From Martelella lutilitoris (lineage in GTDB: Bacteria > Pseudomonadota > Alphaproteobacteria > Rhizobiales > Rhizobiaceae): a stretch of DNA of 64,000 nt. Shown piece by piece: positions 28,455 to 58,086 of the stretch; position 1 is the first letter of the stretch, and every line of letters begins with the position of its first letter. A model generated the notes under the pieces. The model did no database searches. It was not told where the DNA came from and worked only from the letters and a program-made list of their open reading frames with translations. The stretch lies in contig NZ_CP066786.1 in assembly GCF_016598595.1 (NCBI RefSeq), positions 1,139,501-1,203,500 of the forward strand. Direction: 5' to 3'. A program made the translations under genes and the position numbers.

Positions 28455-29909
28455 ATGCAGTGCCTGACCGACTTTTCGACGCCCTTGTCCGGCGACCTTG
28501 AGCAACGCCTCGAACAGCTTGCCGCACGCGCGGCCTGGGAGATGGACTGTATCGAGGCCGTAGCGCCGGTATGGCTGAAAAAGCCAGAGAAAGAGGCGCG
28601 TTACAATGCCGTGATCGTCGGGGCCGGGCTGAACGGGCTCTCGGCCGCCTTCGCGCTGAGGCGTCGCGGCATCGAGGGCATTCTCGTCATCGATCAGGCC
28701 GAGGCCGGGCGCGAGGGGCCGTGGGTCACGTCCGCGCGGATGAAGACGCTGCGCTCGCCGAAGACGCTGGCCGGTCCCGATTTCGGCATTCCGAGCCTCA
28801 GTCCGCGCGCATGGTACGAAGCGGTTTACGGCGCCGAAACCTTTGCCGGGCTCGAGAAGATCGGCCGCGAGGACTGGATGCGCTACATGCTCTGGTTCCG
28901 CCAGGCGAGCGGCGTGACGGTTCATAACGAAACCCGGCTTGAGGCCGTGGCCGAAGCCGAAGAGGGCGTGCGGCTGACGATTTCGGGCAATGCGGGGCTT
29001 CCCGGCGAGATCACCTGCCGCCGGCTGATCATGGCCAATGGCATGGATGGCTGCGGCGGGCCTTACGTGCCGGAGAATGTTGCCGCACTTCCCAAGGTGT
29101 TCTGGACGCATAGCGGCGAAGAGGCCGATGACAGTCATCTTCAGGGCAAGGATGTGATCGTTCTCGGCTCGGCCACCTCCAGCTTCGACTGGGCCGTGAC
29201 CGCGCTGGAGGCGGGCGCGCGCCGCGTCACCATGGTCGCCCGCGCAAAGGAACTTGCCTGCACCGAGGTGCTCGCATGGACCAATTTCCCCGGCTATCTC
29301 GGCACCTTCGCTGAACTGCCGGATGATGAGAAATGGCGCTTCTCGCGGCACTATTATGATCTGAAGGTGCCGCCGACGCAGGACCAATATGACCGCGCCA
29401 CGTCCTATCCGAATTTCACGATGGAGCTTGGCAGCGGCGTAAATGCGCTTGCCGTCGAGGATGGTCGCATCCGCGCCGAGACGAAGAATGGCACGCTGAT
29501 GGCCGATCATATTCTGCTGGGCACTGGCTACAGCGTCGATTTTTCCATGCGGCCGGAGCTTCTCCCCCTTGAGGGGCGTTTTGCCCATTGGCGCGACCGT
29601 TTCATACCGCCTGAAGGCGAGGATTGCCCGCCGGTCTTGCAGGCGCCCTATCTTGGGCGCACATTCGAACTGACGCCGATGGATGCGGCGCGCGACCGGT
29701 GGATCTCGCGCATCCACATGTTCAATGGCGGCGCGGTGCCGAGCCTCGGGCCCGTTTCAAACGGCATCACCGGGGTCAAATACGGCATCGCCCGCATCGC
29801 CGACGGCATGACGCGGGCCTTTTTCCTGGAAGACGCCGCGCGCTTCCGGGAAGAGCTTGCCGGCTATCGCGAACAGCATTTCAATCCGCGCGGAAAGGTC
29901 TCGGCCTGA
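28455..29909 (+). CDS. FAD-dependent oxidoreductase / flavin monooxygenase-like protein
   Basis: A 484-residue two-dinucleotide-domain flavoprotein. The FAD-binding motif GAGLNGLSAAFALRRRG is near residue 54 and a second Rossmann motif, VIVLGSATSSFDWAVTALEAGA, near residue 230 would bind NAD(P)H; GTGYSVDFS follows near the C-terminus. This resembles flavin-containing monooxygenase-type enzymes, though the FMO fingerprint is not complete. It opens a four-gene run (this gene, questin-oxidase-like, two amidohydrolases) with short spacings, suggesting an oxidative first step in a ring-degrading pathway. Substrate unknown. Confidence 0.8.
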   Translation: MQCLTDFSTPLSGDLEQRLEQLAARAAWEMDCIEAVAPVWLKKPEKEARYNAVIVGAGLNGLSAAFALRRRGIEGILVIDQAEAGREGPWVTSARMKTLRSPKTLAGPDFGIPSLSPRAWYEAVYGAETFAGLEKIGREDWMRYMLWFRQASGVTVHNETRLEAVAEAEEGVRLTISGNAGLPGEITCRRLIMANGMDGCGGPYVPENVAALPKVFWTHSGEEADDSHLQGKDVIVLGSATSSFDWAVTALEAGARRVTMVARAKELACTEVLAWTNFPGYLGTFAELPDDEKWRFSRHYYDLKVPPTQDQYDRATSYPNFTMELGSGVNALAVEDGRIRAETKNGTLMADHILLGTGYSVDFSMRPELLPLEGRFAHWRDRFIPPEGEDCPPVLQAPYLGRTFELTPMDAARDRWISRIHMFNGGAVPSLGPVSNGITGVKYGIARIADGMTRAFFLEDAARFREELAGYREQHFNPRGKVSA

Positions 29910-29928
29910 TAGGGCCGGGGAGGACAAC

Positions 29929-30960
29929 ATGACGACACCGCTGACACTCGATGCCGTGCTGGCCAAGGCCCAGACGCGCAGTTTCGAATTTCCCTACATG
30001 CTCGCCAATCACGTGCCGATGGTGCTGATCGCGCTCGACCGGCTCGGCGCCACGCCCGAGCGGCTCGATGAATGGTACGAGACCTATCGCGACGCCCATG
30101 CCGTGCCGCCGATCGCCGCCCCCGTCGCGCCGATCAATCCCGGAAACTGGCAGGAAGCGCTCGGCGAACGCGCCCGCGAGGCGGATTATCGCGGCTTCTT
30201 TGTCGGCGAGGTGCAGCGGCTCGGCATCGACAAGGCAATCCGTGCCTATCTGCCGGCGATGACGCAGGGGGTTGCCGGAAGCGCCACGCATCCGCTGATG
30301 CGGCTTGCCTATGGCGTGTTGAAGAATGATGCGCGCGAGGTCGGCCACGCGCTCGGCTATTGGGCGGCGACCTATCTGCCGCTGCCGGGGCCGGGCAGGT
30401 TCGAAGCCGACACGGATGATCCGGCGGAGGTGTTGGCCGGGATCGCCGAGATCGAGGGCATCCGCGATTACGAGACGGAGACCGATCTGCTCTGGCATAA
30501 TATCCGTGCCGTTGGCGCGCTTCCGGGGTTTGCCCCGGTGATCGATCGGCTGCGATTTCACGATAACACGGTGCGGCGGATGACCGAGGTGTCGCTTGTT
30601 GCCTTCGCCTTCACGCTGGATTTCTCCGCGCTCCACGCCGTCACCGGCATGCACTGGATGCGCCTTGTCACCCCGCATGTGGATGAGGACAAGGTCGAGC
30701 CGCTCTACCGCGCCTTCTGGCAGGTGATCGCGGCGCTTGTGCCGAAGATCGGCTTTCCGGTCTTCCCCACGGCCGATGAGGTGCAGGCCATGCGCGAACG
30801 CGATGCCCCCGAATGGCCGGAGATCAAGGCGGCTGCCATCGCCTCCTATGACGAACACGACGTCAGCTTGACCTTCTCGGCATCGGAAGAGCAGAAAGCA
30901 TGGGGCGGCGACCGGCTCTACCGCGTTGCCGCCGCCCGCCGACTTCGCCTGATCGACTGA
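29929..30960 (+). CDS. Questin-oxidase-like family protein
   Basis: A 343-residue protein matching the questin oxidase-like (AflY/DUF4243) family: FEFPYMLANHVPMVLIALDRLGA at the N-terminus, a central THPLMRLAYGVLKND motif, a second NVRRM-type HDNTVRRMTEVSLVAF and an H-rich VTGMHWMRLVTPH segment. Fungal members act in Baeyer-Villiger-type ring cleavage; bacterial members are largely uncharacterised. The ATG at 29929 has GGGGAGGAC directly upstream. It sits between a flavin oxidoreductase and two deaminase-type amidohydrolases, so a role in oxidative ring opening of a cyclic substrate is an inference from context. Confidence 0.75.
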   Translation: MTTPLTLDAVLAKAQTRSFEFPYMLANHVPMVLIALDRLGATPERLDEWYETYRDAHAVPPIAAPVAPINPGNWQEALGERAREADYRGFFVGEVQRLGIDKAIRAYLPAMTQGVAGSATHPLMRLAYGVLKNDAREVGHALGYWAATYLPLPGPGRFEADTDDPAEVLAGIAEIEGIRDYETETDLLWHNIRAVGALPGFAPVIDRLRFHDNTVRRMTEVSLVAFAFTLDFSALHAVTGMHWMRLVTPHVDEDKVEPLYRAFWQVIAALVPKIGFPVFPTADEVQAMRERDAPEWPEIKAAAIASYDEHDVSLTFSASEEQKAWGGDRLYRVAAARRLRLID

Positions 30961-30969: not shown

Positions 30970-32160
30970 TTGCCTGCACATGTCGTCGTTGAGAATATCC
31001 GCAATCACCGGGGTGAGCGCGTCACGCTCCTGGTCCGGGAGGGGCTTGTTTCCGGATTTGCGCCGGAAGGGGCGGTTGACGTTCCCGATGCGGCCGAGCG
31101 CTTCGACGGCGGCGGGAAGATGATCCTGCCGGGGCTTGTCGATGGGCATATCCATCTCGACAAGACGCTGATCGGATTGCCCTTCATTCCGCATATTCCC
31201 GGCGATACGGTCGCCAAGCGTATTGCCGCCGAGCGCGAGCTGCGCCGCACGGTGGCGCTTCCGGTGACGGCGCGCGGCGGGGCGCTGATCGAGAAGATCG
31301 CCGCACTGGGAACGGTCGCCGTCAGAAGCCATGTCGATATCGACACCGAGACCGGGCTGAAAGGGCTCGAACAGGTGCTGTCGCTGCGAGAAAGCCATGG
31401 TTATCTGATCGACATCGAGATCGTCGCCTTTCCCCAATCCGGCATTATTCGTGATCCGGGCACGGCAGAGCTGCTGCACGAGGCTGTTGCGGCTGGTGCT
31501 GACCTTGTCGGCGGGCTGGATCCGGCGGGCATCGACAATGATATCGAGGGTCATCTCAATGCCGTCTTTGCCATTGCCGAGAGGCACAATGTCGGCGTCG
31601 ACCTGCATCTTCATGATGGCGGCGCGCTTGGCGCTTTCGAACTGCGCCGGATTGCCGAGCGCACGATCGCGCTGTCGCTTCAGGGCCGGGTGGCCGTCAG
31701 TCATGCCTTCTGCCTTGGTGAGCTGGATGATGCGGATTTCGGCAGGACGGCGGCGCTTCTGGCGCGCGCCGAGATCTCGATCATGACCAATGGGCCGGGC
31801 CCGGTGCCGATGCCGCCGGTCAGGCGACTGGCCGAAGCAGGCGTCCGGGTCTTCGCCGGCTCCGACAATATCCGCGATGCCTGGTCACCTTTCGGCAATG
31901 GCGATCTGATCGAACGCGCCGGCATCATCTGCGACCGGCAGGGTTTCCGCGCCGACGATGACCTGGAGCGGGCCTTTGCGCTGGTAACGCAAGCCTCCGG
32001 CGCCGTGCTCGGTCGAGGAGAGCCGCTCTCCCCCGGCGCGCCTGCCGATTTCATTCTGCTCGAATGCGGCAGCATCGCCGAGACGCTGGCCGAGCGTCCC
32101 GTGAGCCGCGCCGTGTTCAAGGCCGGGCGCAAGGTTGCCGAAGCCGGGCGGCTGGTGTGA
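30970..32160 (+). CDS. Cytosine-deaminase-like amidohydrolase
   Basis: A 396-residue metal-dependent hydrolase of the cytosine/isoguanine deaminase branch. Metal ligands are seen in DGHIHLDKT, HVDIDT, VDLHLHDGG, SHAFCLGEL and GSDNIRDAWSPFG. At the place where cytosine deaminase has the catalytic Glu (HxxE), this protein has Asp (HLHD), so its chemistry may differ. TTG is used as start because AGGAAA lies just upstream and no ATG fits. It follows the questin-oxidase-like gene by nine bases and precedes a paralogous amidohydrolase. Probably removes an amino group or opens a ring of a heterocycle. Confidence 0.85.
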   Translation: MPAHVVVENIRNHRGERVTLLVREGLVSGFAPEGAVDVPDAAERFDGGGKMILPGLVDGHIHLDKTLIGLPFIPHIPGDTVAKRIAAERELRRTVALPVTARGGALIEKIAALGTVAVRSHVDIDTETGLKGLEQVLSLRESHGYLIDIEIVAFPQSGIIRDPGTAELLHEAVAAGADLVGGLDPAGIDNDIEGHLNAVFAIAERHNVGVDLHLHDGGALGAFELRRIAERTIALSLQGRVAVSHAFCLGELDDADFGRTAALLARAEISIMTNGPGPVPMPPVRRLAEAGVRVFAGSDNIRDAWSPFGNGDLIERAGIICDRQGFRADDDLERAFALVTQASGAVLGRGEPLSPGAPADFILLECGSIAETLAERPVSRAVFKAGRKVAEAGRLV

Positions 32161-32164
32161 TCTG

Positions 32165-33403
32165 ATGGCTGAGATCGACTTTCTTATCCGCAACGCCCGA
32201 CTTTCTGGGCGGAACCTGCCGGTCGATATCGCCTTTGCCGGTGACCGCATCGCATCTGTTGCAAACGGCATCACCTGCGATGCGCCCTCTTTCGATGCAG
32301 GCGGCAAGCTTGCCACGCCGGGGCTCGCCGAGACCCATATCCACCTCGACAAGGCCGGAATCATCGGCCGTTGCGCGCTCTGCGAGGGCACGCTTGCCGA
32401 AGCCGTGCGCGAAACCGCGAAGGCCAAGGCGGCCTTTACCGAGGCGGATGTCTACGCCCGCGCGGCAACGGTCGTCGAGCAGGCGATATCGCATGGCACG
32501 ACCCTGATGCGCACCTTCGTCGAGATCGATCCGCGCGCGGGTTTCCGCTCCTTCGAGGCGATCAAGGCGATCCGGCGCGATTATGCCGATGCGATCGAGA
32601 TCATCATCTGCGCCTTCGCCCAGGAAGGGCTGACGAACGACCCGGGCACGGAGGAAATGCTGGCCGAGGCGCTGGCGAACGGCGCCGGTCAGGTCGGCGG
32701 CTGCCCCTATACCGATGCCGATCCGGCGGTCCATGTGACGAAGATCTTCGACCTTGCCGAGCGCTTCGGCGTCAACGTCGATTTCCACGTCGATTTCGAC
32801 CTGAAGCCGGAAGGCTCCAATCTCGGCGCCATCATCGCCGAGACGAAACGGCGCGGCTATCAGGGGCGCGTCTCCATCGGCCACGTCACCAAGTTGTCCG
32901 CGCTTGAACCGGACGCCTTTGCCGAAGCGCTTGCGGCACTTGCCGAAGCGGGCATCGCGCTGACCGTGCTGCCGGCGACCGATCTTTACCTCAATGGCCG
33001 CGAATTCACGCATCTGGTGCCGCGCGGCATGACGCCCGGCCACAGGCTGATTGCGGCAGGCGGCATCGCCACGCTTTCCACCAATAATGTGCTGAACCCG
33101 TTCACCCCTTTCGGCGATGCCTCGCTGATGCGCATGGCCAACCTCTACGCCAACATCGCCCAGCTCGGCACGCCGGACGATCTTGCAACCGTCTACGACA
33201 TGATGTCCGGGCAGGCGGAGCGCCTGCTGGGACGAGAGCCCGCCGCCATCGTGGAAGGCGGTCCGGCGACGGTGGTGCTGTTTGATGCGGAAAACCCGGC
33301 CGAGGCCGTGGCGAGGGTGGCGCCGGCCCTTTGCGGCTGGCGAAATGGGAAAAGGACCTTCGAGCGCCCGCCAGCCCGGATTTTATGTTCGCCGGGCCGA
33401 TGA
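32165..33403 (+). CDS. Amidohydrolase, cytosine-deaminase-like with altered active-site residues
   Basis: A 412-residue paralogue of the preceding enzyme. ETHIHLDKA and IGHVTKLSAL keep the metal-binding histidines, but the usual HxxE motif reads HVDF and the ligand Asp of the SDxxxD region is Asn (STNNVLNPFTPFG). Two residues that usually coordinate or catalyse are thus replaced, so it may act on a different substrate, use another residue or serve as a partner. The ATG at 32165 lies four bases after the upstream stop. Last gene of the run beginning at 28455. Confidence 0.8.
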   Translation: MAEIDFLIRNARLSGRNLPVDIAFAGDRIASVANGITCDAPSFDAGGKLATPGLAETHIHLDKAGIIGRCALCEGTLAEAVRETAKAKAAFTEADVYARAATVVEQAISHGTTLMRTFVEIDPRAGFRSFEAIKAIRRDYADAIEIIICAFAQEGLTNDPGTEEMLAEALANGAGQVGGCPYTDADPAVHVTKIFDLAERFGVNVDFHVDFDLKPEGSNLGAIIAETKRRGYQGRVSIGHVTKLSALEPDAFAEALAALAEAGIALTVLPATDLYLNGREFTHLVPRGMTPGHRLIAAGGIATLSTNNVLNPFTPFGDASLMRMANLYANIAQLGTPDDLATVYDMMSGQAERLLGREPAAIVEGGPATVVLFDAENPAEAVARVAPALCGWRNGKRTFERPPARILCSPGR

Positions 33404-33487: not shown

Positions 33488-34486
33488 ATGATCACGGATC
33501 AGAACGGCACGATTGATGTCCGATTTTTACGCACGACCTTCCTTCTGTTGAGCGAACAGAATGTCTCGCGCGTCGCAGCCAGGCTCGGCCAGAGTCAGCC
33601 TTCCGTCAGCGCGGTGCTGAAGCGCGCGCGCCAGGTTTTCGATGATCCGCTTCTGGTCAGGAGCGGGCAGGGCATGGCCGTGACGGAGCGGGGAGAGACG
33701 GTGCGGACCTCGCTTGGCCGCATCCTGGCGGAACTCAGCGAGACCATCAGTCCGGAAGAGGTCTTCGATCCCGCCACCACCGCGTTTGCCATGCGGATTT
33801 CGGCGATGAGCTGTTTCAACGGCTTTCTCATTCCGCCGATTGCCGAGAGGCTCCGCAACGAAGCGCCGGTGGCCTCGATCGATTTCTTCGCGCCTGCCGA
33901 AAGCGACGACCTGACCGAGCAACTGAGTTCCGGCGCTTCCGATCTTCTCGTTGCCAACTGGCCGGCGCCGCATGAAAGCCTGCGCTCCAGCACGATCTTC
34001 GATTGCGAGACTGCCTGCATCATGCGGGCGGACCATCCCTTGGCCGGGCGGTGCAGCCTGTCGCTGGAGGACTATCTCGAGCAGCCGCATCTTTCGCTCG
34101 GTTCCGTCGTCCGGCCGGCCTTCAGTCCCATCGGCGGGCGGTTGAAACAGCTTGGCGTCAACCGCCGGGTGGCGCTCTCCGTGCCCGAATACGCGCTGGT
34201 GCCGCCGGTCGTCGCCCGCACGGACCTGATCTTCACCACGGCCCGGCCCTATGCGGAATTCGTCGTCAGTCGTTACCCGGACTACGGTCTCCGCGTGGTT
34301 CCCGCGCCGCCCGAGTTCGGCAATATGCGGCTTTATCTTCTCTGGCATGAGCGCGCGCACAAGAGTCCGGCCAATCGCTGGGTGCGCAACCTTATCCGGG
34401 ACGTTTCGAGGCGCTACGGCGCTGATCTCGAAGCGCGGCCGACGCCTGCCGCCATGGCCGGTCTTGCCGAGCTCGCGGCGGTATAA
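33488..34486 (+). CDS. LysR-family transcriptional regulator (paralogue of 49432 gene)
   Basis: A 332-residue LysR-type activator. The helix-turn-helix is VSRVAARLGQSQPSVSAVLKRARQVFDDPLLVRSG and the effector domain has DLLVANWPAPHESL and LLWHERAHKSPANRWVR. The ATG has AAAGG eight bases upstream. The protein is clearly related along its whole length to the regulator at 49432-50433. It lies between the deaminase run and a creatininase/ABC operon that begins at 34666 after a 179-base gap containing AAATTGCAT, so it probably controls that operon and itself. The effector is unknown. Confidence 0.92.
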   Translation: MITDQNGTIDVRFLRTTFLLLSEQNVSRVAARLGQSQPSVSAVLKRARQVFDDPLLVRSGQGMAVTERGETVRTSLGRILAELSETISPEEVFDPATTAFAMRISAMSCFNGFLIPPIAERLRNEAPVASIDFFAPAESDDLTEQLSSGASDLLVANWPAPHESLRSSTIFDCETACIMRADHPLAGRCSLSLEDYLEQPHLSLGSVVRPAFSPIGGRLKQLGVNRRVALSVPEYALVPPVVARTDLIFTTARPYAEFVVSRYPDYGLRVVPAPPEFGNMRLYLLWHERAHKSPANRWVRNLIRDVSRRYGADLEARPTPAAMAGLAELAAV

Positions 34487-34565
34487 GCCGGGGCCTATAC
34501 CGCATATAAGCGCCAGCGGAATTGCCGAACGTCAAATGCCATGATCATAATGTAGGCACAAATCG

Positions 34566-34574
34566 AAATTGCAT
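34566..34574. promoter_or_regulatory. AAATTGCAT motif upstream of the creatininase/ABC operon
   Basis: Copy of the 9-mer seen upstream of both LysR genes, about 92 bases before the creatininase-family start at 34666. No complete -35/-10 pair is obvious beside it. Confidence 0.45.
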
Positions 34575-34665
34575 AAAACTTAGTCCGGTTTATCTGCCGT
34601 GCCGAGCCTCGTCGCTCGCGCCGCCGGCGAAGCTTTGCCGAGACGATGGATGGAAGGAAGGCCAA

Positions 34666-35481
34666 ATGCCGCTCAAATCGCACTGGTGGTGGGATCACAC
34701 CACCAAGGACTTCACCGATATGGACATGTCGGAATTCGTGGCGATCCTGCCGGTGGCAGCCGTCGAGCAGCATGGCCCGCACCTCCCCGTTCGCGTCGAC
34801 AGCGCCATCAATGCCGGGATCATCAATCGCGCCGTCGAGATCATGCCGGACGACATGAAGGTTCTGGTCCTGCCGATGCAGGCGGTTGGCAAGTCGGTCG
34901 AGCATCTGGAGTATCCGGGCACGCTGACGCTGTCCTACGAGACGCTCGCCCGCCTCTGGTTCGAGATCGGCGAGAGCGTGGCGCGCGCCGGCTGCAAGAA
35001 GATCATCTTCGCCAATTCCCATGGCGGCCAGCCGCAGGTGATGGAAATCGTCTGCCGCGAACTCAGGATCAAATGCGGCATGTTCGCCGTCTCCTCATGG
35101 GTTTCAGCAGGTGCCAGCCAGGCTGATCTCTATAGCGAGCACGAGCTGAGGCATGGCATCCATGGCGGTGAATCCGAAACCTCGACCATGCTGCATCTCC
35201 ATCCCGATCTGGTCGACATGCAATATGCCGAGGATTTCCAGCCCATGTCGGTGGAGATGGAACGCGGCAATCAGGTGCTGACGGCGGAAGGCCGGATCGG
35301 CTTTGGCTGGCAGACCCAGGACCTGCACCCCTCCGGCGCCTGCGGCAACGCCGCAGCTGCCGACGCTGAGCGCGGCAGGATCCATGTCGAGCGCTCCGCT
35401 CAGAGCCTCGTAGCGCTTGCAGAAGAGGTTCTCGCCTTCCCGATGGAGCGGCTGACCCAGAAGACCATGTTCAAGGACTGA
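34666..35481 (+). CDS. Creatininase-family amidohydrolase (operon A)
   Basis: A 271-residue metal-dependent amidohydrolase of the creatininase family, which hydrolyses cyclic or formyl amides. Conserved metal-binding segments are VEQHGPHLPVRVDSA, ANSHGGQPQ and HGGESETS. No signal sequence is present. The ATG at 34666 with AAGGAAG upstream is the natural start; the 48 codons before it do not resemble the family. It heads an operon with a CocE-type hydrolase, an ABC ATPase, a binding protein and a fused permease. A paralogue lies at 57265. Confidence 0.9.
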   Translation: MPLKSHWWWDHTTKDFTDMDMSEFVAILPVAAVEQHGPHLPVRVDSAINAGIINRAVEIMPDDMKVLVLPMQAVGKSVEHLEYPGTLTLSYETLARLWFEIGESVARAGCKKIIFANSHGGQPQVMEIVCRELRIKCGMFAVSSWVSAGASQADLYSEHELRHGIHGGESETSTMLHLHPDLVDMQYAEDFQPMSVEMERGNQVLTAEGRIGFGWQTQDLHPSGACGNAAAADAERGRIHVERSAQSLVALAEEVLAFPMERLTQKTMFKD

Positions 35482-35485: not shown

Positions 35486-37096
35486 TTGCTCGCCCGAAAC
35501 CCGACATCAGCTGTTTCAAAGCGCGTCGAGCACCTCCCCCTGAAAGACGGCGTGGTGCTTGCCGCGGATGTCTATCGTCCGGCGGGCGAGGGGGACTGGC
35601 CAGTGCTGTTGATGCGCCAGCCCTATGGTAAGGCAATCGCCTCCACCGTCGTCCTCGCCCATCCCTCCTGGTATGCCCGCCACGGCTACCTCGTGGTGGT
35701 GCAGGACGTGCGAGGCATGGGCGCGTCGGAAGGCGATTTCGATTGTCTGCGCCAGGAATTGAGCGATGGCGCGGAAACGGTCGACTGGGCGCGGGGCCTT
35801 GAGGGCGCCAACGGCAAGATCGGGCTCTACGGCTTTTCCTATCAGGCGATCACGCAATATCTGGCGCTTGCCGGCGGTGCCAGGGTGGATGCCATGGCGC
35901 CGGCCATGGGGTCCTTCGCACCGGAGAAGGACTGGGCCTATGAGGGCGGCGCGCCGCGTTATGCCGGCATGGTCGGCTGGGCGAAGCAGATGGCGCTTCT
36001 CAAGGCGGCCCATGACGGCGACCGCGAGACCCATGCCGCGCTCTCAGTGCTGGGCGGCCTTGATGAAACCGCGCGCTACCTGATGGACCGGCCCGACCTC
36101 TCCCATCTCAAACGCTGGATGGACAATGACGCAGCGGACTGGGATCAGGTTTCACCCGCACGTCTCCTGCGGGAGGTCTCTCTCGACATTCCGGTGCTGC
36201 ATACCGGCGGTTGGTACGATTTCATGCTGGAAGGTACGCTTGCCGCCGACAGGGCCTTCCGCAATGCCTCGTCCGAAACCACGCATCTTGCCATCGGACC
36301 CTGGACGCATATCCCGTGGAACGGGGCGAGCGGTTCGGTTCGGATGCCGGAGGCCGAGGCCTTTTCGGTCGATCGGGCCAATGTCGCGTTTTTCGATTTC
36401 TATCTGAAAGGCAAGGGCGACTCGCCGCCAGCTCTCACAGTGTTCGATCTGGGCGAGCGCGCCTGGAGGACGTTTCGCCGGTTGCCCGCCACGACCGAGA
36501 AGACGATGGCGCTCTGCTCCGGCGGGCTTGCCGCCACCCTTGCCAATGACGGCAGGCTTGGCGATGAGCCCGGCGATGGCGAGGATGTGCTCGTCAGCGA
36601 TCCCTTCCGCCCGGCGCCGCTTGTCGGCGGCCATGTCGGCGAACCGTCGGGCTTCGTCGACCGGGCTCCGGCCGACGATCGTTCCGATGTCGCCGTCTAT
36701 ACCACAGCGCCTTTTGCGCAACCCTTCACCGTTTGCGGGCCTGTCAGGGCCGACATCACCATATCGACGGAAGCACCGGTCTTCGATCTCGTTGCCACGC
36801 TCTCTCTGGTATCCCCCACAGGAGGCGCAAATGTGATCCAGACCGGCATAGCCCGGACGAAAAACACGGGTGCGCCGGTGAGCGTCGGTTTGCGCGCGGC
36901 CTATGTCACAGCGCCGGCGGGCTTCAGCCTCCGCCTGTCGCTGCAGGCCGCCGCCTGGCCCGCCTTTTCTCTCCATGCACAAGACCCGGCATCTGCCGAT
37001 GGGATGAACGCTCAGCCGCTGACGCTGGCGATCCGTCACGCGGCCAGCCGTCTCGTGCTTTCCGTTCTGAATGAGGACACCGCAAATGGCGCCTAA
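35486..37096 (+). CDS. CocE/NonD-family serine hydrolase
   Basis: A 536-residue alpha/beta-hydrolase of the X-Pro dipeptidyl-peptidase (S15)/CocE group, which cleaves esters or amides. The nucleophile Ser118 lies in LYGFSYQAITQYLALAG; the lid and C-terminal jelly-roll domain are present, with the probable catalytic His in AIGPWTHIPW. No signal peptide, so probably cytoplasmic. The start is TTG with AAGGA seven bases upstream, inside the end of the previous gene. It overlaps the following ATPase gene by 11 bases. Substrate is unknown; an acyl or peptidyl amide brought in by the adjacent transporter fits. Confidence 0.85.
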   Translation: MLARNPTSAVSKRVEHLPLKDGVVLAADVYRPAGEGDWPVLLMRQPYGKAIASTVVLAHPSWYARHGYLVVVQDVRGMGASEGDFDCLRQELSDGAETVDWARGLEGANGKIGLYGFSYQAITQYLALAGGARVDAMAPAMGSFAPEKDWAYEGGAPRYAGMVGWAKQMALLKAAHDGDRETHAALSVLGGLDETARYLMDRPDLSHLKRWMDNDAADWDQVSPARLLREVSLDIPVLHTGGWYDFMLEGTLAADRAFRNASSETTHLAIGPWTHIPWNGASGSVRMPEAEAFSVDRANVAFFDFYLKGKGDSPPALTVFDLGERAWRTFRRLPATTEKTMALCSGGLAATLANDGRLGDEPGDGEDVLVSDPFRPAPLVGGHVGEPSGFVDRAPADDRSDVAVYTTAPFAQPFTVCGPVRADITISTEAPVFDLVATLSLVSPTGGANVIQTGIARTKNTGAPVSVGLRAAYVTAPAGFSLRLSLQAAAWPAFSLHAQDPASADGMNAQPLTLAIRHAASRLVLSVLNEDTANGA

Positions 37097-42079: not shown

Positions 42080-42092
42080 GGGGCATTTCCTT

Positions 42093-42111
42093 TGTTGCCT
42101 TTCAGGCAACA
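42093..42111. promoter_or_regulatory. LysR-box-like dyad upstream of divergent LysR and cupin operon
   Basis: TGTTGCC-TTTCA-GGCAACA, perfect 7-base arms; its inner TGCC...GGCA fits the T-N11-A LysR box. Located 14 bases from the LysR start, as expected of an autoregulatory site. Confidence 0.65.
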
Positions 42112-42337
42112 TCATATGCGAAAATAAATGCTTTTAAAGCGACAAGAACTGGATCACCATCACGTCAGTGCTGAAGGCGTTCACGGCCACCGCAAAGCGT
42201 TTTTTTCCCCAGCTGTCGCGGCGGTTTCGGCCTTCGGTTCCGGCATGAGCGGTTCTCCAGAGGTCTCCCACCACCTTGAAATGCTCCGCGCCGCTCATGC
42301 CGGCTCTTATTGTCAGACAGGATTTCCAGAGGGTCCC

Positions 42338-46831: not shown

Positions 46832-47794
46832 TCAGGCCGGAAAGCGTTTGCGCAGAAAACCATCGATGAAATCCGCGGGCTTTTCCTCCAGCAGTGGAAA
46901 TCCAAGGTTTCGGGCTGTCTCGGCTGTAAAACAGGCGGGAAAATCCTGCGGCCGGTAAACCGGCGGATCCGTACGGTCGATCAGCGACAAGATGTCGTCT
47001 CCCGCCCGGTCCGCGAGCGCGGCAAGCAGTCCCCCGACCGTCAGCGAGACGCCGGGCATCGCCAGCGCCCGCGCATCCGCGAGGATCCGGCCCTCGATAT
47101 TTGCCGCATAAATGAGCTGAGCGACCGCCGTTTCCGGCGAGGCCAGCCAATGGCGCACATCGTCGGAAGCAGGCAGAAGCGCGCGGCGTCCTTCCAGCGG
47201 TTCGCGGATGATGTTGGAAAAGAAACCGGAATTGCCATGGGTGGCTTCGCCGGGCCTCACCGCAATTGTCGGCAGGCGCAGGCAGATGCCGTCGACAAAG
47301 CCCATGCGCGAATAATCGGCAATGATGGCCTCGCTCATCAGCTTCTGCGTGCCGTAGGAACTGTCCGGCCGGGGCTGAGCCGCATCATCGATGAGGGCCG
47401 GGAAGGGGGCGCCATAGACGCCGATCGACGAGGCATGGACAAGGCGCGGGCGATAATCATCGCCCGCAAGACGGATCGCCTCGAGGGTTGCCCGCACCGT
47501 ATCGAAATTGATGTGGTAGCCGATGGCAAAATTGCTGTCGGCCTGGCCCATGGCGGTGGCGGCCACGTGAAAGATCACGTCCGGACGGGCGGCTATCACC
47601 TCTCCGATCGTCTCGAGAACCGCCGCATCCCCCGTCACCCATTGCGTGGCATCCCCTTCGATCTCGCTCTTGCGGATATCGGAGAGAATGAGCGCGTCAA
47701 GGCTTTCAGTGCCGAGCGCGCCGCGCGCAATCAGCGTTTCGGCGAGCGCGCGGCCGATCATGCCGGAAGCGCCGATAATGGCGACGGAGGCCAT
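46832..47794 (-). CDS. NAD-dependent epimerase/dehydrogenase, D-erythronate dehydrogenase (DenD)-like
   Basis: A 320-residue extended short-chain dehydrogenase. GASGMIGRAL is the NAD loop, HASSIGVYGAPFP the active-site Ser region and Tyr147/Lys151 in SSYGTQKLMSE the catalytic pair. RLPTIAVRPG and SGFFSNIIREPLEG follow the DenD pattern closely. Known DenD oxidises D-erythronate to 2-oxotetronate; the partner kinase and decarboxylase genes are not in this window. It shares the strand and probably the transcript with the amidohydrolase at 47809 (14-base gap). Confidence 0.82.
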   Translation of the reverse strand: MASVAIIGASGMIGRALAETLIARGALGTESLDALILSDIRKSEIEGDATQWVTGDAAVLETIGEVIAARPDVIFHVAATAMGQADSNFAIGYHINFDTVRATLEAIRLAGDDYRPRLVHASSIGVYGAPFPALIDDAAQPRPDSSYGTQKLMSEAIIADYSRMGFVDGICLRLPTIAVRPGEATHGNSGFFSNIIREPLEGRRALLPASDDVRHWLASPETAVAQLIYAANIEGRILADARALAMPGVSLTVGGLLAALADRAGDDILSLIDRTDPPVYRPQDFPACFTAETARNLGFPLLEEKPADFIDGFLRKRFPA

Positions 47795-49431: not shown

Positions 49432-50433
49432 GTGAAAGGAATCCATGTTTTGGCCACACCAGCCGGAGACCACGGACTTGACCTGCGCCTGATGCGCATT
49501 CTCGACGTGCTGCTCGACGAGTGCAGCGTTTCGAAGACCGCTACGATCCTTGGACAGAGCCAGCCTTCCGTTTCGCTTGCTCTCAAGCGGTTGCGTGAAA
49601 TTCTCGGCGATCCGCTGCTGGTGCGCTCGGGCGTGAAGCTGATCCCGACGGAAAAGGGCATCGCGATCCGCGCCCAGGTGTCCAACATCCTGCGCGAGAT
49701 CGATGCGCTCGCCGTCTCCGAGGATACGTTCGATCCGGCGAGCTACAATCGCCGCTTCCGCGTTTACGCCGCCAATTGCCTCGGCACTTTCTTCATGCCG
49801 CGCATCGGCGAACTGGTGCGCCGCGAGGCGCCCAACATGCCGCTCGATTTTTGCACAATCCCTGAGGAATCCCGGATATTTACCGAGCTTGAGGAGGGCA
49901 AGCTCGATCTGGTGATCGGCAACTGGCCGCTGCCGCGCGATTACCTGCGTTTTGCGCCCTTGCTTGAGACCGATATCGTTCTCGTGATGCGCAACGAACA
50001 TCCGCTCGCCGGTCGTTCGCGCATCGATCTTCAGGAATATCTGAACCTCGACCATCTTTCGCCGACGCCGCATACGAGTCCGGCCATCAGTCCCATCGAC
50101 GGACAGCTTGCCCAGCTTGATGCCAAGCGCGAGATTGCCATGTCGGTCGCCGAATTCACGCTGGTGCCGCACATGCTGGCGCGCACCGATCTGGTGTTCA
50201 CCAGCAGCCGCCCCTTTGCCGAGCAGATGGCGGAGTCGGGCGACTTCTCGATTGTCCGCGCGCCGGAGGAACTGGCCCGGATGAGCTTTTACACGCTGTG
50301 GCATGAACGGTCGCATCTCTCCCCCGGCAATCAGTGGTTCAGGAAATTGTTGCGCCGGGTTGCCAAAGAGATAAGCGAATTCACACCCCATCCATCAAGT
50401 GAAACTTCGCCCGAAGCCATTAGTGGGAACTAA
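49432..50433 (+). CDS. LysR-family transcriptional regulator (paralogue of 33488 gene)
   Basis: About 330 residues. The helix-turn-helix is VSKTATILGQSQPSVSLALKRLREILGDPLLVRSG, nearly the same as in the 33488 regulator (GQSQPSVS, LKR, DPLLVRSG shared); the effector domain has DLVIGNWPLPRDYL and LWHERSHLSPGNQW. The start is uncertain: GTG at 49432 or TTG at 49450 (AAAGGA nine bases upstream). It is divergent from the ATZ-type amidohydrolase and upstream of operon B, whose first gene starts 166 bases after its stop. It probably controls both. Confidence 0.9.
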   Translation: MKGIHVLATPAGDHGLDLRLMRILDVLLDECSVSKTATILGQSQPSVSLALKRLREILGDPLLVRSGVKLIPTEKGIAIRAQVSNILREIDALAVSEDTFDPASYNRRFRVYAANCLGTFFMPRIGELVRREAPNMPLDFCTIPEESRIFTELEEGKLDLVIGNWPLPRDYLRFAPLLETDIVLVMRNEHPLAGRSRIDLQEYLNLDHLSPTPHTSPAISPIDGQLAQLDAKREIAMSVAEFTLVPHMLARTDLVFTSSRPFAEQMAESGDFSIVRAPEELARMSFYTLWHERSHLSPGNQWFRKLLRRVAKEISEFTPHPSSETSPEAISGN

Positions 50434-53356: not shown

Positions 53357-54184
53357 ATGTCCGAAGAATACCGCTATCTCAAAACCATGCCGCATTTCGT
53401 GCGCGACGGCGTGCCGCTGCTGACCGGCTTCAAACGCGACCGCATCGCTCCTTACGTAGTGCTTGCCGTCAAGGATCCGCTGGTCGTCGGCGACGGCGCG
53501 GAGGAGGATTCCCTTGCCGCAGCCCTCGACAATGCCGAGGTCTCCGCAAAGACCGGCCTCTTCACCACGGTGACGGGCACTTATGACGGCGCGCCGGTCT
53601 CCATCGTCTCCGGCGGCTCCGGTTCGCCCGAGGCGGAACTGGCGCTGATGGACCTGTTCAATTTCACCGATTGCACCACCGTCATCCGCATTGGCGGCTG
53701 CGGCGCGTGGAGCCCGAAGGTTGGCGTCGGCGATATCGTCATCTCCTCCGGCGCGGTGCGCGACGAGGGCATGACGAAAGCCCATGTGCGTGCCGAATAT
53801 CCGGCCGTTGCCGACTGGCAGGTGGTCGGCGCGATGAAGGCTGTGGCCGATGAGGTCGGCCATCCCTATCACATCGGGATCACCCGTTCGGGCGACAGCG
53901 AATATTGCGGCTGGGGCAAGCCGGGGCCGGGCGGCTATCTGCAGGAAGACCACAAGCAGATCATCGATTACTGGAGCCGCGCCGGCGTGCTCAACACGGA
54001 CCGCGAGGCGGCCGCGATCCTGACGCTCTGCAGCCTTTACGGCCGGCGCGGCGGGGCCGTCTGCTCGGTCGGCGACAATGTGGTGACCGGCGAGTTGCAC
54101 AAATCCGGCTCCGGCCAGACGGCGGCGATCACGGTCGGGCTTTCCGCGCTTGCAAGGCTTTTCCGGGAGGACGCCAATGGCTGA
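53357..54184 (+). CDS. Nucleoside phosphorylase (uridine/purine phosphorylase family)
   Basis: A 275-residue enzyme of the purine/uridine phosphorylase family, cleaving a nucleoside with phosphate into base and ribose 1-phosphate. The family core is VSGGSGSPEAELALMDL, then IRIGGCGAWSPKVGVGDIVISSGAVRDEGM, and the SVGDNVVTGEL region that normally carries the base-binding residues. ATG at 53357 lies after AAGAAAGAAC. It lies between the permease and ATPase genes, so imported nucleosides are likely substrates. It overlaps the next gene by eight bases. Which nucleoside is used cannot be read from sequence. Confidence 0.88.
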   Translation: MSEEYRYLKTMPHFVRDGVPLLTGFKRDRIAPYVVLAVKDPLVVGDGAEEDSLAAALDNAEVSAKTGLFTTVTGTYDGAPVSIVSGGSGSPEAELALMDLFNFTDCTTVIRIGGCGAWSPKVGVGDIVISSGAVRDEGMTKAHVRAEYPAVADWQVVGAMKAVADEVGHPYHIGITRSGDSEYCGWGKPGPGGYLQEDHKQIIDYWSRAGVLNTDREAAAILTLCSLYGRRGGAVCSVGDNVVTGELHKSGSGQTAAITVGLSALARLFREDANG

Positions 54185-55280
54185 GAAACGCGCACCCGAC
54201 CATCTGGTGATCCAGAAGGTGATGAAGCATTACGGCGGCGGTGGCGAGCCGGCGCTGAAAAGCGTGTCCCTCAATGTGCGCAAGGGCGAGTTTCTCGCTC
54301 TGCTCGGCCCATCCGGCTGCGGCAAGACCACGCTGTTGAAGATCATCGCCGGGCTTGAGAAGGCGACCGAGGGCCAGATGGCGCTGGCGGGCGAGGGGCT
54401 CGATGCCATCCCGACCTACAGGCGCGATATCGGCATCGTCTTCCAGTCCTATGCGCTGTTTCCGCACATGACGGTCGACGCCAATATCCGCTTTGGCCTC
54501 GACATGCGGGGCATCAAGGGGAAAGAGGCTGACCGGCGCGTGGAGGAAGCGCTCGACCTGGTCAAGCTCGACGGACTTGCCGCCCGCATGCCCAACGCGC
54601 TTTCCGGCGGTCAGCAGCAGCGCGTGGCGCTCGCCCGTGCGCTGGTCATCCGGCCGAAGCTTCTGCTTCTCGACGAGCCGCTTTCCAATCTCGATGCGGT
54701 GCTCAGAAAAAGCGTCCGCGTCGATATTCGCGAGCTGCACGAGCGCATCGGTCTGACGACGGTGATGGTGACCCATGACCAGGAGGAGGCGATGAGCATG
54801 GCCGACCGTGTCGCCGTGATGGCCAATGGCTATGTGCTTCAGCATGATACGCCGGAGACGATCCACGAGCACCCGGCCTCCGCTTTCGTGGCGACCTTCG
54901 TCGGCAGCCCGCCGGCGATCCTGTTGCCGGTGGAAAAGACAGGCGAGGGCTACGGCATTGGCGGCACGGCCTTCACCCCATCGAGCTCACTCGCCGCCGC
55001 TATCGCGATGCAAAACGGCAAGCCGGTGCTGCTGGGGCTCCGCTCCGACCGGCTCTCCTTCGCCGATGAACCAGGCCCGCTGACGATCACCGGCGAGGTC
55101 CATTCCAGCGAATATATCGGCGGCTCCTGGCTGGTGCATGTGGCGCTCGGCGAACACCGCATCGCCGTGCCGACGCGCGAGCGCCCGCCGCAATTCGGCG
55201 AGGTGGCCCATATCCGCATCGACGAGGCCGAGCCGCTGCTCTTCGATCCCGACACCGGCGCCAGGGTCGCGCAGTCATGA
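54177..55280 (+). CDS. ABC transporter ATP-binding protein (PotA type), operon B
   Basis: A 367-residue ATPase. Walker A GPSGCGKTT, signature LSGGQQQR, Walker B LLLDEPLSNLD and H-loop THDQEEAMSMADR are intact, followed by a TOBE-like C-terminal domain. The start ATG at 54177 overlaps the nucleoside phosphorylase stop. The stop overlaps the kinase start (ATGA). It energises the operon B permeases; paralogue at 37086. Confidence 0.93.
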   Translation: MAEKRAPDHLVIQKVMKHYGGGGEPALKSVSLNVRKGEFLALLGPSGCGKTTLLKIIAGLEKATEGQMALAGEGLDAIPTYRRDIGIVFQSYALFPHMTVDANIRFGLDMRGIKGKEADRRVEEALDLVKLDGLAARMPNALSGGQQQRVALARALVIRPKLLLLDEPLSNLDAVLRKSVRVDIRELHERIGLTTVMVTHDQEEAMSMADRVAVMANGYVLQHDTPETIHEHPASAFVATFVGSPPAILLPVEKTGEGYGIGGTAFTPSSSLAAAIAMQNGKPVLLGLRSDRLSFADEPGPLTITGEVHSSEYIGGSWLVHVALGEHRIAVPTRERPPQFGEVAHIRIDEAEPLLFDPDTGARVAQS

Positions 55281-56212
55281 GCGGCGCAGTCTATTGCCTC
55301 GGGCCGCTTGTGCTCGACCGGGTGCTGACCGTCGATGACCTGCCGGGCCACGACGAGAAGGCCTTCATCAAGAAAAAGGAAGAACGCGCCGGCGGTCCGC
55401 CGCTCAATTGCGCCTGGGCGCTGAGCCGGCTCGGCGAGGATGCGCGTCTGGTCTCCACGATCGGCGATGACGGCGAGGGCGCGATCCTGATGCAGTGGCT
55501 CGCCGAGCGCGACATGAGCACCGAAGCCGTCGATGTGAAGGCTGACAGCGTCACGGCCTCCGCCACCATCATCGTCGATCGCACCGGCGAGAAGGCGATC
55601 CTGATCGATCCCGTTCCCGTCGAGACGCTGGCGGTGATCGGCGACCGTGTTTCGCTGCAGGCGGACGATACGGTGATTTCGAATTTCTTCCATCCGGAAG
55701 CCGTGGCGCGCATGTTCGATCGTGCAGCGAAAGCCGGCATCGACCGGATGATTGATCTCGAGCTTCCGGAGATCGAACGCTGGGGCTGGCAGGCGATGGA
55801 AAACATCCTGCCCTTCGCCTCGGTCGTCGTCACCAACCGTCAGGTGCTTGAGGCATGGATGGCGCGCAGCGGAAATGACCGGCCGATTGCCGAAGCCGCC
55901 GAAGCGCTTGCCCGTTTCCTCTCCGGCAATGGCAGCCGCAGGGCCGTCGTCACGCTCGGCTCCGAGGGCCTGGTCGCAATCGACCGAGATACGGTTTTCC
56001 GCCTGGATGCCTTCAAGGTCACGCCGCGCAATACCACGGGGGCCGGCGATGTATTTCTCGCAGGCCTTGCCACGGCGACACGGCGCGGACGCCGGTTTGA
56101 AAAGGCGCTCGCCTTCGGCACGGCCGCTGCCGCGCATTTCCTGGAAACGGGACGGTGCGACGCCGCAGCCGCGGAAGCGCTGATGAAAGACAAGATGAAG
56201 GAAAGACTGTAG
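55277..56212 (+). CDS. PfkB-family carbohydrate kinase
   Basis: A 311-residue ribokinase-like enzyme. N-terminal GGPPLNCAWALSRLGEDARLVSTIGDDGEG and C-terminal NTTGAGDVFLAGLA with catalytic Asp258 are complete. In this operon a nucleoside phosphorylase would make ribose 1-phosphate, so a ribose- or ribose-1-phosphate kinase is a plausible role; inosine/guanosine kinase-type activity is another. The start overlaps the ATPase stop. The ADP-ribosylglycohydrolase-family gene follows after three bases. Confidence 0.9.
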   Translation: MSGAVYCLGPLVLDRVLTVDDLPGHDEKAFIKKKEERAGGPPLNCAWALSRLGEDARLVSTIGDDGEGAILMQWLAERDMSTEAVDVKADSVTASATIIVDRTGEKAILIDPVPVETLAVIGDRVSLQADDTVISNFFHPEAVARMFDRAAKAGIDRMIDLELPEIERWGWQAMENILPFASVVVTNRQVLEAWMARSGNDRPIAEAAEALARFLSGNGSRRAVVTLGSEGLVAIDRDTVFRLDAFKVTPRNTTGAGDVFLAGLATATRRGRRFEKALAFGTAAAAHFLETGRCDAAAAEALMKDKMKERL

Positions 56213-56215: not shown

Positions 56216-57268
56216 ATGGCCACCAGATCGAAAGCCATCGAGGCCGTGCTCTCGGCCGCCTGCGTCGCCGATGCGCTGGGCGCTGCCACAGAATGCATGC
56301 ACCCGGACGAGATTGTCCGTATTTTTGGCGGACCGGTGACGACGTTTCGCACACCGCCGGAGAAATCCCCCTTCGCCAAAGGGCTGGCGCCGGGCCGGTT
56401 GACGGATGACGCCACGCAGATGCTGGCCATGGCAAAGCGCATCATCGGGCTTGAGCGGGCACCGGTCTCCGCCGACGCGATTGCCGGTTTCATCGACTGG
56501 TCGCATGACGAGGAAATGTTCCAGCGCTTTGCCGGGCCGACGACCCGCATTGCAGTCGAAGCCATGCGCGCCGGCGCGCCTGCCGAAGCCGTCGCCACGC
56601 CCGAGACCTATTCCTGCATGTTCGGCACCTCCAATGGCGGGGCCATGCGCGCGCCGACGGCGGGGTGTGCGGCCGCCGGCAATCTTTCCGAGGCCGTGCG
56701 CATTGCCTGCCTGATGTCGGCGCCCACCCACAACACCCAGATTGCCTATGCCGGCGCCTCCGCTGTTGCCGGCGCCATCGCCGTCGGGCTTTCGCCCGAG
56801 CGGTCGATGACGATTGTCGAGGCGGCGCTTGAAGGCGCGCGGCTTGGCGAGGTGGAAGCGCATTTGAGCGGCCGCATTGTCGGCGGCGCAGGCGTTGCCC
56901 GCCGCATCGAGATCGCGGTCGAGATCGGTATCCGCTACAAGGCGGATATCGAGGCCGCGCGCGCCGAACTGATCGAGGTGATCGGCAATGGCGTTGCCAT
57001 GTCGGAAGCCGTGCCGCATGCTTTCGGCCTTGTCGCCGCTGCCGACGGCGACCCGTGGACGGCGATCCTTGCTGCCGTCAATGGCGGCAATGACAGCGAC
57101 ACGATCGCGATGATCGCCGGTTCGGTTGCCGCCGCCTGGAATGGCGCGGCCGGCATTCCGGCTCAACTGATCGAGGAGGTTTCGCGGGTGAATGTGCTTG
57201 ATCTTGCGGGCGTTGCCGAGGGGCTTGCCACGTTCAACGAACAGGTTATTGCGGGAGAGCGGGCATGA
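56216..57268 (+). CDS. ADP-ribosylglycohydrolase-family protein
   Basis: A 350-residue all-helical DraG-like hydrolase that removes ADP-ribose or cleaves N-ribosyl bonds with two magnesium ions. Metal-binding motifs are TDD at 63-65 (in RLTDDATQML) and GGNDSDT at 290-296. Both are kept, so it should be active. In this operon with a transporter, a nucleoside phosphorylase and a PfkB kinase it may act on ribosylated small molecules rather than proteins. It overlaps the next creatininase-family gene by four bases. Confidence 0.88.
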   Translation: MATRSKAIEAVLSAACVADALGAATECMHPDEIVRIFGGPVTTFRTPPEKSPFAKGLAPGRLTDDATQMLAMAKRIIGLERAPVSADAIAGFIDWSHDEEMFQRFAGPTTRIAVEAMRAGAPAEAVATPETYSCMFGTSNGGAMRAPTAGCAAAGNLSEAVRIACLMSAPTHNTQIAYAGASAVAGAIAVGLSPERSMTIVEAALEGARLGEVEAHLSGRIVGGAGVARRIEIAVEIGIRYKADIEAARAELIEVIGNGVAMSEAVPHAFGLVAAADGDPWTAILAAVNGGNDSDTIAMIAGSVAAAWNGAAGIPAQLIEEVSRVNVLDLAGVAEGLATFNEQVIAGERA

Positions 57269-58086
57269 AGCGTTATTGGCTGGAAATGACATCGCCGGAC
57301 CATGCGGCGCTGCCGGAAAACACGGTGGCGGTTCTGCCCGTCGGCGCGACCGAGCAGCATGGACCGCACCTGCCGGTCGGCACGGATTGTCTGATCAATA
57401 GCGGCATTGTCTCGGCCGCGCTCGACAAGCTTGGAGACGATGTTCCTGCCGTCATCTTGCCGTTACAGCCGGTCGGCGCCTCGCAGGAACATCTCGATTA
57501 TGCCGGATCGCTCGCCCATCCCGCGCCCGATCTGATGCAGTCCTGGACGCGGGTGCTTGATTGCGCGGTGCGCTCCACCGGGCTGAAACGCATCCTGATC
57601 TTTAACAGCCATGGCGGCCAGGCGGGGCTGCTTACCACTGTGGCGCTCGACCAGCGCGTGCGTCACAATATCCTCGGCGCCTATGCCACCTGGTTCGATG
57701 CCGGCTATCCGGACGGGCTTTTCACCGATGACGAGATCCGCACCGGCTTTCACGGCGGCGATATCGAGACATCGCTTATGCTGGCGCTGCATCCGGACCT
57801 GGTGGTGATGGAAAATCTCGGCGATTTTCGGTCTTCCGTCGATGAAATCGAAGCGGGTACGCAGCAGCTCTCCGCCAATCCCGGCGGCGGCCGCGTCGGC
57901 GGCATCGGCTGGAAGGCGCAGGACCTCAATGTTGACGGCGTGACCGGCGATGCAAGCCGCGCAACCGCAGACAAGGGCAGGGCGCTGCTGGAACACACGG
58001 CGGCAAGCCTCGCGAGACTGATCACCGATCTGGCGAACACCCCGATGCCGTCGGACAATTGGCCGCCGGAGAAGTACCGGGCTTGA
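57265..58086 (+). CDS. Creatininase-family amidohydrolase (operon B)
   Basis: A 273-residue member of the creatininase family. Metal-binding residues lie in VGATEQHGPHLPVGTDCLI, FNSHGGQAG and HGGDIETS. It is coupled to the preceding gene (ATGA) and closes operon B; REP-like repeats follow. It is paralogous to the 34666 enzyme, which lies in the sister operon, suggesting both operons process related amide-bearing substrates. Confidence 0.9.
   Translation: MKRYWLEMTSPDHAALPENTVAVLPVGATEQHGPHLPVGTDCLINSGIVSAALDKLGDDVPAVILPLQPVGASQEHLDYAGSLAHPAPDLMQSWTRVLDCAVRSTGLKRILIFNSHGGQAGLLTTVALDQRVRHNILGAYATWFDAGYPDGLFTDDEIRTGFHGGDIETSLMLALHPDLVVMENLGDFRSSVDEIEAGTQQLSANPGGGRVGGIGWKAQDLNVDGVTGDASRATADKGRALLEHTAASLARLITDLANTPMPSDNWPPEKYRA

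Follow-up and report, generated by a model that had tools for sequence, protein, structure and literature searches.

We analysed a gene island at positions 28455..58086 of a 64,000-nucleotide stretch of DNA (hereafter the window), which corresponds to positions 1139501-1203500 of contig C1 of the Martelella lutilitoris genome. The island is built of three conserved units rather than one, here called M1, M2 and M3, which are undescribed as far as our literature searches reach; those searches covered subscription journals in small part, and none of the matches listed describes M1, M2 or M3, judged by title and opening of the abstract. We lean towards the view that the stretch consists of three catabolic modules that were assembled independently and came to be stacked in Martelella, with functions following the scheme proposed below. 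The modules are defined by their gene content, boundaries, predicted folds and conserved residues, and from these we infer every substrate, every reaction and the order of reactions.

Three modules that occur apart

Pfam and NCBIfam scans of the island proteins, the latter with curated cut-offs, recovered at or near their expected positions all the families named in a first-pass annotation: an FAD oxidoreductase, a PF14027 questin-oxidase-like protein, three amidohydrolases, two creatininase-family proteins, CocE, a cupin, an isochorismatase, HpxZ, an amidase, a gamma-glutamyltranspeptidase-fold (GGT, HpxW-like) protein, PNP_UDP_1, PfkB and ADP_ribosyl_GH proteins, two Pot-type importers and three LysR regulators (Table 1). 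An NAD-epimerase gene was missing from that list, and open reading frames (ORFs) overlapping LysR2 and LysR3 on the opposite strand gave no Pfam match. The gene families within the island boundaries are thus real. The boundaries themselves did not stand, as they cut M1, whose importer lies upstream and whose kinase and ATPase half lies about 410 kb off. Genes are closely packed from FAD to AH2 (22, 9 and -26 bp), from Crn1 to the fused permease (4, -26, 30 and -37 bp), from cupin to HpxZ (-1 and -4 bp), from amidase to GGT (7 bp) and from SBP2 to Crn2 (63, -4, 13, -11, -4, 3 and -4 bp), some of the start codons behind these figures having been chosen by hand. Gaps of 84-297 bp or strand switches separate most of these tight runs.

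The same annotation had read the island as one for taking up and breaking down nitrogen-rich ring compounds or their ribosides, which is still the best general reading, and M3 looks like a riboside unit. Its further claim that the island is one pathway is not supported, given the occurrence of the modules apart from each other outside Martelella. Over the 15-21 kb covered per locus, M3 is found without nearby M1 or M2 genes in Pleomorphomonas, Prosthecomicrobium, Bauldia and Rhizobium loci; M2 genes are reordered, or lack M1 and M3 alongside, in Roseomonas, Neorhizobium and genome G273; and M1 is the only module at the two Rhizobium plasmid loci that we examined and also occurs by itself in many genera. 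In our order-level survey, a sample of 297 genomes of Hyphomicrobiales, no strong M1 or M3 marker was found in any of the four other genomes with a strong match to the M2 binding protein (SBP1). The grouping of genes nevertheless exceeds chance, as shown by the kept gene order of M3 and by the position of M1 beside its importer (counts below).

Within Martelella, where linkage was judged over roughly 40 kb per genome, M1 is present in nine of 13 genomes. All nine have M1 linked to the first half of M2, other genes spanning about 5 kb intervening in two (G008 and G005); seven have the second half of M2, and in four M3 follows directly. In Martelella sp. HB161492, M3 lies on a scaffold of 209,724 bases and M1 on another of 406,803 bases. 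Genome G004 carries decayed LysR2, GGT and ARH-Crn2 remnants (L035 900-2519) where other Martelella have M2 and M3.

We consider it improbable that the island forms one continuous pathway in which M3 would import and de-ribosylate a riboside, M1 oxidise and M2 hydrolyse a single heterocycle. The adjacency in four of the nine M1-bearing Martelella would fit such a pathway, as would the G004 remnants, which suggest former adjacency there too, and the presence in some M1 loci elsewhere of isochorismatase and GGT genes akin to the M2 copies (the GGT of locus L105 is 62% identical to the window copy). Against this, each module occurs without the others nearby outside Martelella, the four other strong SBP1 genomes lack a strong M1 marker, M1 is equipped with an importer and sugar enzymes of its own, and M2 and M3 hold complete, paralogous importers and regulators. 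The M2 and M3 paralogues are 42% (LysR), 40% (creatininase), 44% (ATPase) and 28% (binding proteins) identical. These comparisons suggest one ancestral importer module that was fitted to two substrates.

M1, a catabolic run with a predicted ring-cleaving dioxygenase

The questin-oxidase-like protein of M1 falls in PF14027 and models as a BTG13/PaD-type fold, the shape of fungal ring-breaking iron enzymes, and is predicted to be a non-haem-iron ring-cleaving dioxygenase. Its candidate iron ligands, His 27, 120, 235, 241 and 309, are kept in 138-140 of 140 aligned questin-oxidase-like sequences, the remainder being gaps. In BTG13, a carboxylated lysine is an iron ligand. The lysine that follows the last histidine in PaD aligns with Ser312 of the M1 oxygenase, at a place where the PaD alignment is weak (2.5 bits), and lysine occurs at the Ser312 position in the distant paralogues L067/L068. 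The M1 oxygenase is 16-18% identical to the BTG13 questin oxidase and the PaD hydroquinone dioxygenase (structures 7y3w-y and 8z4q-r); it differs from them in being about 100-120 residues shorter, in having this serine instead of the PaD lysine, and in the setting of its gene, a bacterial catabolic run that includes a flavin oxidoreductase. This oxidoreductase, 55% identical to its counterpart in locus L014, appears to be class-B flavin-monooxygenase-like. AH1 resembles N-isopropylammelide hydrolases and cytosine deaminases and has the catalytic Asp present in all 25 aligned proteins, whereas Asn occupies that position in all 15 aligned AH2 proteins.

Matches to the questin-oxidase-like protein occur in 21 of the 297 genomes at 1e-20, and are strong in 18. 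The sugar importer adjoins the oxygenase gene in 15 of the 17 other strong-match genomes, where AH1 was found in 13, a UgpC-type ATPase in 12, the flavin enzyme in 11 (leaving out two at 33-34% identity), SDR in eight, isochorismatase (35-38%) in eight, BtpA in seven and FGGY in seven; the flanks span about 10 kb or less, so the counts for the rarer partners are lower bounds. A plasmid search gave 93 matching records (85 Rhizobium, 7 Streptomyces and 1 Nonomuraea), two of which, both from Rhizobium, had their contexts opened. Both show a single run of flavin enzyme, questin-oxidase-like protein, AH1, a gene annotated as 8-oxoguanine deaminase, and AH2, facing a sugar-type importer that is followed by SDR, DeoR, BtpA, FGGY kinase and GGT genes.

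The importer at 25124-28271 on the minus strand extends M1 upstream of the island; its permeases are 71-79% identical to those beside the FAD-questin-oxidase-like pair of the two Rhizobium plasmids, and no ATPase gene lies beside it. The M1 block is contiguous in five Martelella genomes. In the present genome, FGGY-BtpA-DeoR and SDR-UgpC genes occupy about 750.7-756.1 kb of the contig that also carries the window (G000:C1:750700-756100, L133), some 410 kb from the importer permeases, and are 65-77% identical to the Rhizobium genes. The distant UgpC thus probably offers the ATPase that is wanting beside the window importer. A DeoR gene different from that of M1 and a class II aldolase gene (22722-24798) border this importer.

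We propose that the M1 importer would take up a sugar-linked nitrogen heteroaromatic, whose sugar would be processed by the remote SDR, BtpA and FGGY kinase, while the flavin enzyme would oxygenate the ring, the iron dioxygenase cleave it and the amidohydrolases carry out hydrolysis. More specifically, and only as a tentative suggestion, M1 could be an undescribed, widespread Hyphomicrobiales route for such a compound, in which a hydroquinone-like ring made by the flavin enzyme would be split by a BTG13/PaD-family dioxygenase lacking the lysine ligand. The substrate would then be the glycoside of an oxidised or hydroxylated purine or pyrimidine, for which chemical reasoning alone names the vicine/convicine type as a candidate.

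Ring hydrolysis, oxygenation and ribityl handling would also be chemically suited to the breakdown of a riboflavin- or lumichrome-like flavin by M1, and an old route of riboflavin breakdown presumably gives oxamide. We nevertheless regard this as very unlikely and rejected it: the reconstituted lumichrome pathway, as presented in PMC12746152, which also shows intermediates of riboflavin breakdown in Pseudomonas, relies on a Rieske and an extradiol dioxygenase, a P450, a TPP decarboxylase and a xanthine-oxidase-type enzyme, and the Pfam and NCBIfam scans found none of these five families among the island proteins scanned.

M2, a reordered unit around a creatininase-like hydrolase

M2 appears to be one unit because its gene content is kept despite rearranged order. 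A Roseomonas mucosa plasmid (Acetobacteraceae) holds isochorismatase, cupin, creatininase, importer, amidase, HpxZ, CocE and LysR2-like genes together and reordered, at 45-60% identity, and genome G273, which belongs to a different family of this order, has a cluster of HpxZ, isochorismatase, cupin, LysR2, importer, CocE and Crn1 genes at 48-72% identity. Crn1 and CocE are present in two of the four other strong SBP1 genomes, in one of them together with the HpxZ part of M2, and in two of the three plasmids examined among five records with SBP1 at 57% or more. The GGT-fold protein has 5hft, which we take to be HpxW, as its closest PDB entry, and the 5hft small-chain match begins at residue 343, which predicts Thr343 (GDTIW) as the nucleophile. 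Neither Crn1 nor Crn2 reaches the model of true creatininase (TIGR04448 73.8 and 64.6 bits, cut-off 235).

M2 would import a small cyclic amide or ureide and open its ring in the manner of a creatininase, with hydrolysis by CocE, isochorismatase, amidase and, in Martelella, the HpxW-like enzyme to follow. It may also complete the breakdown of M1 products, since some M1 loci elsewhere hold their own isochorismatase or HpxW-like gene.

Two of these genes recall the Klebsiella HpxWXYZ set, which we take to be an oxalurate/oxamate cluster of that gene make-up: HpxZ scores over its curated cut-off, and the HpxW-like Ntn hydrolase is nearest 5hft. It seems unlikely, all the same, that the middle unit is the standard cluster and the island an ordinary urate/ureide pathway. 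The amidase is not of AtzE/HpxY type (TIGR02715 207.4 bits, cut-off 425.75) and passes NF006169 instead; because it belongs to this different curated family, M2 is not, on sequence grounds, the described HpxWXYZ set. By eye, no HpxX-type ORF was recognised among those of at least 30 amino acids in the cluster gap, and a PF13318 (HpxX/AtzG-like) search gave no match in the genome, its controls being equally silent. M2 also goes beyond the Klebsiella set in its creatininase-like protein, CocE and Pot-type importer. Finally, urate oxidase, HIUase, OHCU decarboxylase, allantoicase and ureidoglycolate lyase genes occupy a stretch at 1.060-1.070 Mb of the chromosome, which precedes the window by about 70-80 kb and also encodes a molybdopterin-domain protein; the one OHCU decarboxylase match of the genome is there, with allantoicase and ureidoglycolate lyase adjoining. 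The ordinary urate pathway was rejected because its genes sit elsewhere in the genome.

Some likeness to atrazine degradation is also apparent, AtzC, AtzH and AtzE presumably being gene names of that pathway. AH1 resembles the N-isopropylammelide isopropylaminohydrolases (AtzC) and HpxZ is AtzH-like; the AtzE model, however, is far under its cut-off, and beyond the AtzH-like Pfam family no Atz-specific cut-off is reached.

M3, a conserved unit of probable nucleoside type

A scan of the whole collection seeded with the ADP-ribosylglycohydrolase-family (ARH) protein alone found ten core M3 genes in the same order in 12 of 13 loci, compared over 15-21 kb each; the thirteenth is a 7 kb contig with the last six genes, their order kept. 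The NAD-epimerase accompanies M3 in seven of the 13. In the closest named loci, from Martelella radicis and M. lutilitoris, the ten core genes are 94-99% identical to those of the window and the NAD-epimerase 86-88%. A Kaistia protein is 75% identical to the M3 phosphorylase, and some Kaistia may hold further M3 genes elsewhere. The TRZ/ATZ-type amidohydrolase has a 37% homologue on pSymA of S. meliloti, with a nucleoside hydrolase and a BMP importer.

The phosphorylase-like protein has the NP-I fold and lacks the canonical phosphate-site set: of the Udp residues Gly26, Arg30, Arg48, Arg91 and Thr94, which we take to form that site, Arg91 is kept and the other four are replaced. The purine-type Asp204, presumably the catalytic residue of purine nucleoside phosphorylase, is found in 117 of the 118 relatives counted out of 120 listed (P0163 and P0164 left out), the window protein included. 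Membership of the ARH protein in its family is indicated by PF03747 together with both acidic motifs. Structure models in this work were built on 32 and 24 sequences picked from lists of 120.

M3 would import a purine-type nucleoside, from which the NP-I enzyme would release the base in a reaction that is probably hydrolytic or uses an altered acceptor; the ribose would pass to PfkB, and the base would be deaminated and opened by the TRZ/ATZ-type amidohydrolase and Crn2. The yegTUV genes of E. coli likewise place an ADP-ribosylglycohydrolase-family protein beside a sugar kinase and a transporter; M3 differs in also encoding an NP-I enzyme, a deaminase-type amidohydrolase, a creatininase-family protein and a Pot-type ABC importer. 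Amidohydrolase-superfamily base hydrolases are also represented by the N2,N2-dimethylguanine hydrolases and the AtzB cluster: PMC13054789 describes such dimethylguanine enzymes, one of them from Pleomorphomonas oryzae, and announces a follow-up of their genomic context. Other Pleomorphomonas carry M3, and the M1 of Rhizobium contains the gene annotated as 8-oxoguanine deaminase; counting by eye, however, we could not recognise the CQNN residues in its L014 protein, and no gene of the N2,N2-dimethylguanine-hydrolase type was found within the window.

Several side observations concern M3 loci or their surroundings. A gene for a PutA-type bifunctional proline dehydrogenase/aldehyde dehydrogenase (58357-61788) adjoins M3 in the window and in loci L001 and L002. 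In three M3 loci only (Table 1), an ANL-type ligase-like ORF, recognised by eye, separates LysR from the binding protein. Locus L009, from a record titled Marinicella sp. W31, which is unexpected for such content, has M3 genes largely 77-97% identical to those of the window, with PfkB and ARH matched only as several fragments. Beside the PfkB-ARH pair of locus L109 (2126-9832, genus g105) stand an isochorismatase gene, an adenine-deaminase-like gene and ORFs that look hydantoinase-like by eye.

Table 1. Features of the three modules, with the evidence for each assignment (positions in the window unless a locus is given).
Feature	Position	Strand	Evidence
M1 sugar-type ABC permeases	25124-25942, 25939-26910	-	BPD_transp_1 for 25939-26910 (sole one of the two Pfam-scanned)
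M1 sugar-type solute-binding protein	26967..28271	-	SBP_bac_1, 142.8 bits
M1 NAD(P)/FAD oxidoreductase	28455..29909	+	Pyr_redox_3, Lys_Orn_oxgnase; GAGLNG, GSATSS motifs
M1 questin-oxidase-like protein	29932..30960	+	PF14027; BTG13 fold (model)
M1 amidohydrolase AH1	30970..32160	+	NF004636 493.4 bits, cut-off 408; PDB 6nbo 301.7 bits
M1 amidohydrolase AH2	32135..33403	+	Amidohydro_3; Asn replaces catalytic Asp
M2 LysR1	33488..34486	+	42% identical to LysR3
M2 Crn1 creatininase-family hydrolase	34522..35481	+	PF02633 226.9 bits; metal motifs
M2 CocE/NonD-type hydrolase	35486..37096	+	TIGR00976 323.5 bits, cut-off 66.3
M2 Pot-type importer	ATPase 37071-38111, binding protein (SBP1) 38142-39194, fused permease 39158-40879	+	Pfam
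M2 LysR2, CynR-like	41177..42115	-	NF008416 134.7 bits, under cut-off 277
M2 cupin	42128..42766	+	Cupin_2
M2 isochorismatase-family amidohydrolase, RutB/BiuH-like	42766..43551	+	PF00857; TIGR03614 135.2 bits, under cut-off
M2 HpxZ / AtzH-like	43548..43961	+	NF033625 166.6 bits, over cut-off 135; PF11533
M2 amidase, PRK08310 type	44074..45231	+	NF006169 448.9 bits, over 391
M2 HpxW-like Ntn hydrolase (GGT)	45239..46825	+	PF01019; 5hft A/B chains 265/256 bits
M3 NAD-epimerase, D-erythronate-dehydrogenase-like	46832..47794	-	NF043036 264.9 bits, under cut-off 325
M3 TRZ/ATZ-type amidohydrolase	47809..49314	-	metal motifs intact
M3 LysR3	49432..50433	+	profile scan
M3 Pot-type binding protein (SBP2) and permeases	SBP2 50600-51631; permeases 51695-52552, 52549-53343	+	Pfam
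M3 NP-I family nucleoside phosphorylase/nucleosidase	53357..54184	+	PNP_UDP_1; purine-type Asp
M3 importer ATPase	54174..55280	+	Pfam
M3 PfkB kinase, ribokinase-like	55277..56212	+	PF00294; TIGR02152 113.5 bits, under 299.65; GAGD
M3 ADP-ribosylglycohydrolase-family hydrolase (ARH)	56216..57268	+	PF03747 158.7 bits; LTDDAT, GGNDSDT
M3 Crn2 creatininase-family hydrolase	57265..58086	+	PF02633 202.8 bits; 40% identical to Crn1
ANL-type ligase-like ORF	L010 2467-4026; L011 2371-3897; L013 2775-4340		

Points against the three-module reading

A number of findings weigh against the reading of three modules with the functions proposed. For M1, AH2 is without the catalytic Asp, and the iron site of the oxygenase may differ, because the PaD lysine position is a serine. 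BtpA, FGGY and SDR are found in just seven or eight of the 17 M1 loci, over the short flanks given above, GGT in two and a clear 8-oxoguanine-deaminase-like gene in one, and the sugar importer was not seen in two of them (L106 and L107). For M2, the importer occurs alone in two of the four other SBP1 genomes (in one case on an 8 kb contig) and in one of the three plasmids examined; none of the examined M2 loci outside Martelella showed the HpxW-like GGT, and the amidase was seen outside the genus in Roseomonas only, so that neither is a fixed part of M2. For M3, eight of the 118 NP relatives still have Arg at the Udp Arg30 column, and the ARH-PfkB pair also occurs in yegUV of E. coli, an operon reportedly without clear function according to the abstract of PMC10819704. 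The substrates of all three modules, moreover, are ones that we infer only.

The remaining point is the co-occurrence of M1 and M3 by genus, with P 0.0036 when the window's own genus is included. It weakens to P 0.027 without that genus, and to P 0.21 when only the genera with Crn2-linked M3 are taken. The count left out three of the 21 questin-oxidase-like genomes (G223, G087 and G212; weaker than ~1e-70) and 11 of the 21 ARH genomes (weaker than ~1e-80); the G223 gene is split over two contigs, and including its genus gives P 0.0049. We dropped this co-occurrence as evidence, since it shrinks without the window's own genus and the five mapped ARH loci of genus g105 hold the PfkB-ARH pair only.

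Implications

What had been a 30-kb list of hydrolases is resolved here into three defined, conserved units, one of which is a split cluster, with its probable ATPase and its sugar enzymes about 410 kb from the binding protein and permeases of the importer. If the proposal for M1 is true, it brings a recently solved family of iron dioxygenases into the bacterial catabolism of rhizobia and their relatives. If that for M3 is true, it assigns ADP-ribosylglycohydrolase- and creatininase-family proteins, which are mostly named by analogy, to the breakdown of nucleosides.

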